Shown here in pieces: positions 53,701 to 64,000 of a DNA stretch of 64,000 bases. The stretch is from Mastigias papua (taxonomy: Eukaryota; Cnidaria; Scyphozoa; Rhizostomeae; Mastigiidae). The notes beneath the pieces were generated by a model. That model was not told where the DNA came from. It made no database searches and saw only the letters and a program-made list of their open reading frames with translations. The stretch covers positions 597,001 through 661,000 of the forward strand of contig OZ025271.1 of NCBI GenBank assembly GCA_964019165.1. Reading direction: 5' to 3'. Position 1 is the stretch's first letter, and each line of letters opens with the position of its first letter. Position numbers and translations under genes: made by a program.

Positions 53701-56700
53701 AGAAGGTATACGCCTGAAGATTGGAAACATGAAACCGACGGTCGCGTATGACAGTATGGTATAACTTTAATTATTATTATTATAACGCTTCATTCAATTG
53801 TCGAGCACTTTAGTGTTGTAAAAGATGCAATTGAGGTATCGCCTGTCGTTCTTATATATATACATACATATATATATATATATATATATATATATATATA
53901 TATATATATATATATATATATATATATATATATATATATATATATATATATATATATATATATATATATATATATATATATATATATATATATATATATA
54001 TATATATATATATATATATATATATTAACTAAGTCGATGCACTAACTAAGGATATAAGTAAAACATAGAGAAACTCAAAAACGTACTTTCTTGTCTAGCA
54101 AATGTTTCGATAGGTTATCTTTAGCAGTGCAAAATGGGTGGTAAACAAGGGGAGCCTGCCTATTAATAATAGTTCAGGGTGCTATATAGTGGCCAATGGG
54201 ACTCTGCATTTCTCCCCCCTCAGGCTGTTATTCAGAGTTACAGAAAAGAGTATCCCTATCATATCTCCGGGCCATGTCTATTAGCTCCCTTAGCTCCCTT
54301 ATAAAAGACTCCTCATTTCCCTATCACCCAGCCAGCCAGGCAGGTCCCCTAATCTAGCATAAAACTCACAATCTTCGGAGTATATGCGTCACAACCTAAG
54401 TGCCTGATTATAGGGTATAGCCATCTTGATGGGCCAAGGGTGACAAGACGTCCTATGCAAATGCTGATGGGTATAAGTAGGTTTGCAAGATACATCAGTC
54501 TCAATGATTCCCACTTAAGCTATATTAACCTGACCATCTAGAAAAATAGTCAAAATCGAATGTTCGCTATTAAATCTGATTGTATCATCGTACTGTTTAG
54601 AAAGTTGATGAGTCAATCCAGCTTTTCCTCCCCGTTAGTCCAAATGAAAACCACATCATGTATGAACCTCATCCAACTAAGGGTAAATCAGCTGACTCCT
54701 CCAACAATCTTTCTTCCAGTTTTACCATAAATAGATTAGTGAAGGCTGGAGAAAACTTATTTCTTATGGCCGTGCCAAGCTTCTGCTAAAGAAACGCACC
54801 ATTAAATTCAAAGACTTTATTTTTAAGAACTATAGATGCCAACTTAACCAAAGTATCGGTGGCACCACTAGGAACTCACTATTGTTACTAATGTATGGGG
54901 AGATTTGATGATGGCTGAAGCAAGAGTATATGTACTTATTGTATAATTTAGCGAGAGCGTAAGATATCATTGCAAGTAACAGAAGTTTCTTGTCGAAGGA
55001 GGAAATGAAACATATTCGGCAAAGGCTGGCAGAAATATATGGGTATATTAAAGCAAAGAGAATGATTAATGACAATTGTACTGATCTAGAGGAATGGGCT
55101 TGACCAGAGAAAACAGCGCACTTTGGAAGGGAGGAGTTTATCCTTGAAGGGTTAAGAAGTACTAGTAAGGACACAGCAGCTACTTATAGTGAGCTAATCT
55201 GGAAATATTGAGAGATCACTGTTCACAATAAAAGCCTGAATTACTTATGACTGACATGTATACACTTTATAATGACTTGAGACCTTGTGTCAAGTAGGAG
55301 ATCTCCTGTAACACCGAAAATAAAACTGCAATATAGGAAATAATAACAAACTCCTGAGATCTAGGGTAAAAGCTGTTTACTATGGCACTGATAACATCAG
55401 ATAAAAACGCCCAGAATCCTGGCAACTGCTGGAAAACAGTTTGCGTACCTTACATTCTCTTCATTAGTTTTACCTAGAGACAACCCGTTGGAGAATACAA
55501 GAGCGCATTCTTATTAACAAAATTAAATCTAAAATATAAGATATTAAGAAACTTTCGAGCAAATTATTACAGTGGAGACCTGCAGCAACATTACAGATCT
55601 CCGATCGTTAAACTGCAAACTCCAAACATCTTCAACTATAGTCTACACAAAACTGTCTAACTCACTTAAGATTTTTTAGCCTTCATTAACCATCGAAAGT
55701 TGAACATCAACATACTATTACAAAATACATAATTACACAACACACAAATCCATTTTATATGATCTATACATTACATTTCCATTCAGATGAAGATGAGTGC
55801 ACGACTGGACAACACAACTGTAATGCCAACGCAGCATGTACAAACAACGCTGGTTCATTCTCATGCGCATGCAATAGTGGATATGGTGGAGATGGAACTA
55901 TATGCACTGACATAGATGAGTGTACGACAGGACAACACAATTGCACATTAGGAGCTCCATGCACAAATACTCCTGGATCATTTCTATGTTCAATACTAGT
56001 TGGATGCAATGACGATGGATCAAACTGCATGGACATAGATGAATGCATGATGGGATGGCACAACTGTCACGTCAACGCAGCATGCACAAACACAAATGCC
56101 TCATTTATCTGTATATGCAATAGTGGATACACAGGAGATGGAACTGCATGCTCAGACATAGATGAGTGTTCAATTGGAGTGCACAACTGTCATGCTAATG
56201 CAGCATGTACGAATAGTGCTGGCACATTCTCGTGTGCATGCAACAGTGGATACACAGGAGACGGAACTGCATGCTCAGACATAGATGAATGTTCAACTAG
56301 AGTGCACAACTGTCATGCAACAGCAGCATGTACGAATAGTGCTGGCACATTCTCGTGTGAATGCAATAGTGGATATGGTGGAGATGGAACTATATGCACT
56401 GACATAGATGAGTGCACGACTGGACAACACAACTGTAATGCCAACGCAGCATGTACAAACAACGCTGGTTCATTCTCATGCGCATGCAATAGTGGATATG
56501 GTGGAGATGGAACTATATGCACTGACATAGATGAGTGTACGACAGGACAACACAATTGCACATTAGGAGCTCCATGCACAAATACTCCTGGATCATTTCT
56601 ATGTTCAATACTAGTTGGATGCAATGACGATGGATCAAACTGCATGGACATAGATGAATGCATGATGGGATGGCACAACTGTCACGTCAACGCAGCATGC

Positions 56701-64000: not shown

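Follow-up and report, generated by a model that had tools for sequence, protein, structure and literature searches.

A very large one-exon array of calcium-binding EGF units beside a MUC4-like gene in the scyphozoan Mastigias papua

Two related genes lie in tandem

The window analysed here is a stretch of 64,000 nucleotides of the Mastigias papua genome, in which two genes, referred to below as gene 1 and gene 2, follow one another on the plus strand. Gene 1 starts with a candidate signal-peptide exon (1221-1290), placed by its splice signal and its match to gene 2, and continues with a first EGF exon (7128-7223) that is paralogous to 44113-44208 in gene 2 and with an exon 3 (8084-9022), the positional counterpart of the array exon in gene 2, which has seven EGF units followed by a truncated eighth. 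Next come a mucin-like exon (10168-11577) that encodes 46% serine plus threonine and, between 12378 and 14773, EGF exons at 12378-12494, 13784-13900 and 14528-14773 with one, one and two modules, respectively. The NIDO-VWD core (16248-23038) was recognised with Pfam and its splice sites were set by eye, giving exons at 16248-16559, 17401-18145, 19192-19434, 20310-20642, 21385-21636 and 22526-23038. Once spliced, this core matched NIDO at 2.7e-18 and VWD at 4.4e-14 in Pfam, together with C8-3_MUC4 at 17.4 bits, below the cut-off of 25, as against 28.5 bits in the relative P0121. At E ≤1 Pfam did not detect AMOP in the spliced core, P0121 or P0122, and inspection by eye of 15001-16247 in three frames did not find the first NIDO exon. 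Membrane-proximal EGF exons follow between 24115 and 28507 (24115-24357, 25725-25967, 26772-26897, 27418-27537, 27821-27937 and 28376-28507), and a candidate transmembrane exon with a phase-1 splice lies at 28971-29070, which was the top stretch in a hydropathy scan of 28500-33000 and is followed by the residues KRKYR; the scan also returned weaker, mostly low-complexity stretches at 29.4-30.8 kb. The initial annotation had spoken of a mucin/NIDO-AMOP-VWD partner adjacent to the array. The mucin-like exon, NIDO and VWD are indeed there, but AMOP is not detected by Pfam, and the neighbour is not a mere partner but a tandem paralogue whose first three exons correspond to those of gene 2.

Gene 2 opens with a candidate signal-peptide exon at 38722-38791, which ends at the donor G|GTAAGT in phase 1. 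Around it, 38616-38798 matches 1117-1297 of gene 1 at 70% of DNA positions, and each first exon combines a start codon and a hydrophobic stretch with a G|GTAAGT donor; the putative signal peptide is called from this hydrophobic first exon being kept in the paralogue. The first EGF exon of gene 2 (44113-44208) is supported by an in-frame splice and by the 82% DNA identity of 44065-44222 to 7076-7237 of gene 1, and an alternative acceptor at 44107, also in frame, would add two residues to it. On paper, 38722-38791, 44113-44208 and the exon starting at 55787 join in frame (into ...DEDEC...), and the gene 1 counterparts 1221-1290, 7128-7223 and 8084-9022 do likewise with identical phases. Given these matching first exons and in-frame joins, the array is probably exon 3 of a tandem duplicate.

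The intron ahead of the array measures 11.6 kb and carries inserted elements. Between 44612 and 53635 it holds a reverse-transcriptase frame (44612-46039, minus strand, with an RVT_1 match) and related repeats. An inverted pair, 51427-52233 and 52861-53635, is 95% identical and contains a reading frame that we take to be GIY-YIG-like; together with the reverse transcriptase it is perhaps a rearranged Penelope-like element.

Several further repeats were seen in and between the genes. At 88.6% identity, the two-module EGF exons at 24108-24369 and 25718-25979 (plus strand) show that gene 1 has recently duplicated an entire exon, unlike the array, which lies inside one. A 23-bp minisatellite of 28.9 copies occupies 24531-25194, between EGF exons of gene 1. 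In the space between the genes, 33510-33845 (plus strand) is a decayed EGF stretch that has lost several cysteines and is 38-44% identical to gene 1 array units; it is perhaps a dead further copy. Finally, 27078-27251 and 40440-40614 are 80% identical, have inverted matches among their parts and may represent a small DNA transposon.

The array exon of gene 2

The array exon runs on the plus strand from 55787 to 64000, where the window ends, and is open over all 8,214 bases. Its acceptor reads TTTCCATTCAG|AT and is in phase 1. EGF starts recur 67 times at a constant spacing of 41 residues, so the exon holds 66 full units and part of a 67th, and since the far end of the array lies beyond the window, 66 units is a minimum. 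Tandem Repeats Finder reported a 123-bp period over 56115-64000 (64.1 copies, 93% matches, 0% indels), and Pfam EGF_CA matched 67 stretches in the 2,738 residues, to which other EGF families also match. The predicted product of the visible part amounts to 271 kDa and is strongly acidic in composition, with 273 aspartates and glutamates against 10 lysines and arginines. The earlier description of a single open exon of more than 8.2 kb with at least 66 EGF units is thus borne out by the start at 55787, the reading frame, the repeat analysis and Pfam. Its "exact 123-bp units" are exact in length, every full unit being 123 bp long, but not in sequence, as the 66 full units comprise 23 distinct versions in DNA and 14 in protein. 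That so large a one-exon EGF array is unusual is also what gene 1 indicates, where, exon 3 apart, each EGF exon holds one or two modules. Minus-strand open reading frames within the array (204 and 245 amino acids) were set aside as shadows of the repeat.

Unit types, chemistry and selection

The consensus for calcium-binding EGF modules (cbEGF), here taken as [DN]-x-[DN]-[EQ]-C ... C-x-[DN]-x4-[FY]-x-C, is kept in 66 of the 66 full units, and six cysteines at canonical spacing are present in 62 of them. The exceptions are the G-type unit 2 (55909-56031) and its copies, unit 7 (56524-56646) and unit 15 (57508-57630), all on the plus strand and with the fifth cysteine out of its usual place, and unit 58 (62797-62919, plus strand), where the sixth cysteine has become phenylalanine, leaving it the sole full unit without six cysteines.

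By unit type the array falls into two parts. Units 1-16 (55787-57753) form an older, mixed part that contains block copies and consists of 10 units of types N, G, H, J and O and six A-like units (4 and 9-13). From 57754 to 64000 there follows a homogenised run, units 17-66 and the part of unit 67, in which each unit differs from type A at no more than 7 of 123 positions. Allowing up to 8 differences from type A, 56 of the 66 units are A-like. Types N, G, H, A, J and O differ from one another at 17-53 of 123 positions, N and O at only 3, and identical pairs account for 188 of the 2,145 pairs of units. The seven units of gene 1 exon 3 are likewise near-identical to one another (0-3 differences), whereas one of them compared with each of gene 2 units 1-6 differs at 36-53 of 123 positions, which implies that the two arrays were homogenised separately. 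The gene 2 array has 6 N-glycosylation sequons and no O-fucose-type motif, the gene 1 array 28 and 7; with the meanings that we assume for these motifs, the counts suggest that the stalk surfaces of the two genes would differ.

Seven units, six from gene 2 and one from gene 1, gave omega values of 0.12-0.53 over their 21 pairs, which are rough because several dS values exceed 1; the divergent units nevertheless look constrained. For the first EGF exon, dN between gene 1 and gene 2 was 0.10 and dS 0.48. Among the 56 A-like units, variants comprise 9 nonsynonymous and 6 synonymous changes (P = 0.11 against chance), so that no clear constraint is apparent there.

Traces of block copying and exchange

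The order of unit types over units 1-19, NGHAJ / OGHAACDCJ / GHAAC, shows a block that recurs in altered form. Exact DNA repeat runs extend for 762 bp at an offset of 984 bp (8 units), 498 bp at 615 bp (5 units) and 420 bp at 1,599 bp (13 units), and these are the only three runs of at least 400 bp in the array. Type order and long runs together confirm the block copying that had been proposed, for units 1-19.

The proposed higher-order periods did less well. In units 18-66, similarity at lag 2, corresponding to a 246-bp period, lay below the shuffled mean (z = -1.5), and a 246-bp dimer was rejected, the longest alternation of two types (8 units, 44-51) being equalled in 1,383 of 20,000 shuffles. 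The 738-bp period is weak, with z = 2.1 at lag 6 and P = 0.02, uncorrected, in the allele test. Best supported is a period of 1,107 bp (lag 9, z = 3.6, P = 0.014 over 20 lags).

Exchange can also be viewed within units. Unit J is a mosaic, identical to A over positions 46-82 and to O from position 84 onwards, and among the 56 A-like units, where 9 of 14 variable columns were paired, all four combinations occur at 12 of 36 site pairs; thus exchange, or recurrent change, operates within units. Unequal exchange, as the initial annotation had supposed, has therefore left traces in the form of exact runs at whole-unit offsets, the mosaic J and the four-combination site pairs. In units 18-66, however, units further apart are no less alike than close ones (Mantel r = 0.017, P = 0.33), which counts against a purely local history of duplication. 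For a coding VNTR under concerted evolution, the array thus presents near-identical tandem units that bear traces of unequal exchange, with the missing distance decay opposed to it.

Relatives and the size of the array

Three protein searches, two with the array and one with the gene 1 core, returned 2,887, 181 and 1,607 matches, of which the best 120 each were considered. Among these, identity reached at most 58% in one array search, 61% in the other and 45% with the core, so that none of the matches considered looked like an entry from the same species. The top matches listed for the core were P0121 (45%) and P0122 (43% identity), followed by an uncharacterised frog protein, a Trichoplax protein and MUC4s, and the named ones include mucin-like proteins. 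P0122 has a SEA domain and a run of 16 similar EGF starts at residues 1104-1688, C-terminal of its NIDO-VWD core, and the NIDO-VWD family to which it and gene 1 belong may be prone to growing EGF arrays.

As a measure of homogeneity we scored the tandem self-match at a set identity over lags of 30-59, expressed in copies. At ≥90% identity the array scored 53.8, compared with 9.2 for P0048, the best of 360 listed proteins; at 80% it scored 56.3 against 15.1 (P0020), and at 70% 58.4 against 30.5 (P0001, from Mercenaria), each again the best of the 360. These proteins are the best 120 per search within length windows, and gene predictions elsewhere may have shortened comparable arrays and so affected the comparison. 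We recognised no comparable EGF array in a literature search, which does not imply absence from print.

A sequence search with units 18-22 matched NELL2, uromodulin, Notch and fibrillin. The structure model of units 1-5 reached a modest mean pLDDT of 67.8 and a pTM of 0.37, with confidence lowest in the second half of the G-type unit. Foldseek aligned it to PDB chains of tandem EGFs from NEL/NELL2 and Notch1, at strong E-values but low TM-scores (0.15-0.45 by query length).

Interpretation and alternatives

We read the anatomy of the locus, the paralogy of the first exons, their splicing on paper, the block copies, the mosaics within units and the kept calcium motifs as the marks of a coding VNTR of folded cbEGF modules in the tandem duplicate of a MUC4-like gene, grown by unequal exchange and forming a stalk, an account that we consider rather probable. 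The ancestral exon 3 would have comprised a few different calcium-binding EGF modules, to which misaligned exchange in the 123-bp register would have added copies. Later the type A module would have spread, giving the at least 50 consecutive A-like units, while exchange within units would reshuffle a few variants. Gene 2 itself would go back to the MUC4-like transmembrane gene that spans 1.2-29 kb, duplicated in tandem. As its 3' part lies beyond the window, the mucin-like identity of gene 2 rests on the paralogue, whose mucin, NIDO, VWD, EGF and membrane parts the rest of gene 2 is expected to resemble; its product would be a surface protein.

A cbEGF module adds about 2.7-3 nm to a chain. 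In calcium, the chain encoded by the array would probably be a long, stiff, acidic stalk, with a predicted length of roughly 180-200 nm at that spacing. By analogy with mucin VNTRs, the number of units would set the length of the stalk, and it would be expected to differ between individuals. The most familiar coding VNTRs consist of unfolded sequence, for example the PTS repeats of mucins. Here amplification within one exon has brought a cysteine-rich, calcium-binding domain to more than 66 near-identical copies, and the counterpart of that exon in gene 1 is an array as well. The array is thus an unusually large protein-coding repeat array made of folded modules, and the pair of arrays offers a direct test of the evolution of folded repeats by unequal exchange and of variation in stalk length within a species.

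Loss of function in gene 2 is a possibility raised by the 11.6-kb intron and its inserted elements. Gene 2 could be decaying or untranslated, disabled for instance by an insertion in that intron, with the array a fossil kept open by recent homogenisation; the near-neutral ratio of the A-like variants, the unit that lacks a cysteine and the EGF relic at 33510-33845 would all fit. Against this, 8.2 kb are free of stops and frameshifts, the calcium consensus is kept in every full unit, the candidate signal and EGF exons are intact together with their splice sites, and the older units show omega well below one, and we regard a dead gene 2 as unlikely.

The initial annotation had raised a role in adhesion or self-recognition as an unproven idea. 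The homogenised repeats and variable first loop might also be those of a recognition or gamete-coat protein, with a binding surface that would differ among individuals or species. Codons 7 and 9, in the first loop, contain 4 of the 15 base variants (P = 0.005, post hoc). As presented in part of one account (PMC9265791), the EGF-like repeats of VC70 have been proposed for self/nonself recognition, and the pattern in VERL recalls the mixed units 1-16 followed by the homogenised run; the same part, however, gives the VC70 precursor a ZP domain and describes VERL repeats as ZP-N-like. Pfam found neither ZP nor ZP-N in the array or the gene 1 core, the end of gene 2 being beyond the window, and the A-like variants are equally compatible with near-neutral drift. 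By these lines of evidence a recognition protein seems quite improbable.

Near-identical repeats are difficult to assemble and the array extends to the window edge, so that the number and order of units could have been created or collapsed by the assembler. Yet the frame is held over 66 units with 0% indels, which bears on the frame and not on the unit count; the 23 unit versions and distinct first block speak for the array, again not for the count; and the small array in the matching exon of gene 1 indicates that, the count aside, the class is real. An assembly artefact therefore strikes us as a poor prospect, on a level with recognition. Least of all do we favour a hypervariable barcode in which individuals would differ in how many units they have and in the order in which the loop-1 alleles (SIGV, SFGV, STGF) follow one another, both being read in cell-cell contact, a very improbable scheme, which if true would make a folded-domain VNTR the individuality marker of a membrane mucin.

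Comparison with known systems

Our preferred reading, a stalk-forming coding VNTR in a MUC4-like gene, can be set beside several known proteins. Egg-coat proteins share single features with the array. The portion of PMC9265791 on Halocynthia VC70 describes an egg-coat sperm receptor with 12 EGF-like repeats and a proposed part in self/nonself recognition; it places EGF repeats on a cell coat, as the array would, but has 12 of them against at least 66. Abalone VERL, which binds lysin, is reported in that portion to have repeats 1-2 under positive selection and repeats 3-22 homogenised by concerted evolution (PMC9265791). In both VERL and the array most repeats are homogenised and the first ones are not, although VERL, as portrayed there, has 22 ZP-N-like repeats and the array at least 66 EGF units.

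Tandem calcium-binding EGFs are what the array has in common with fibrillins and other long cbEGF proteins. It differs from the fibrillins listed among our matches in that these are far lower in self-similarity. Pfam found no TB (8-cysteine) domain in the gene 1 core or in the array's 2,738 residues, the last part of gene 2 lying outside the window. A printed parallel to the array is the PIGSFEAST exon of Drosophila Dumpy, where, in the section of PMC2930355 that deals with it, homogenisation concerns a 102-residue module that is not an EGF and the EGFs are mostly interspersed with DPY modules; here the repeat is the EGF itself.

Similar in architecture are the MUC4-like NIDO/AMOP/VWD transmembrane mucins. 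Gene 1 resembles them in NIDO, VWD, its EGFs, its Ser/Thr-rich exon, and its candidate signal-peptide and membrane exons, and it has a C8-3 match below threshold. Sea-anemone mucin4-like proteins have NIDO, AMOP, VWD and sometimes SEA, according to an extract of PMC9080433. Gene 1 differs in that AMOP was not detected, and the EGF array precedes the position of the mucin part. For paralogous membrane mucins that lie side by side, human MUC3A and MUC3B provide a precedent: an extract of PMC9578598 describes neighbours with a single repeat exon of 15.9 and 39.3 kb and with exon lengths that are nearly equal save for the one repeat-coding exon. The repeats described there are O-glycosylated PTS mucin repeats, whereas those of gene 2 are a disulphide-type, calcium-binding module.
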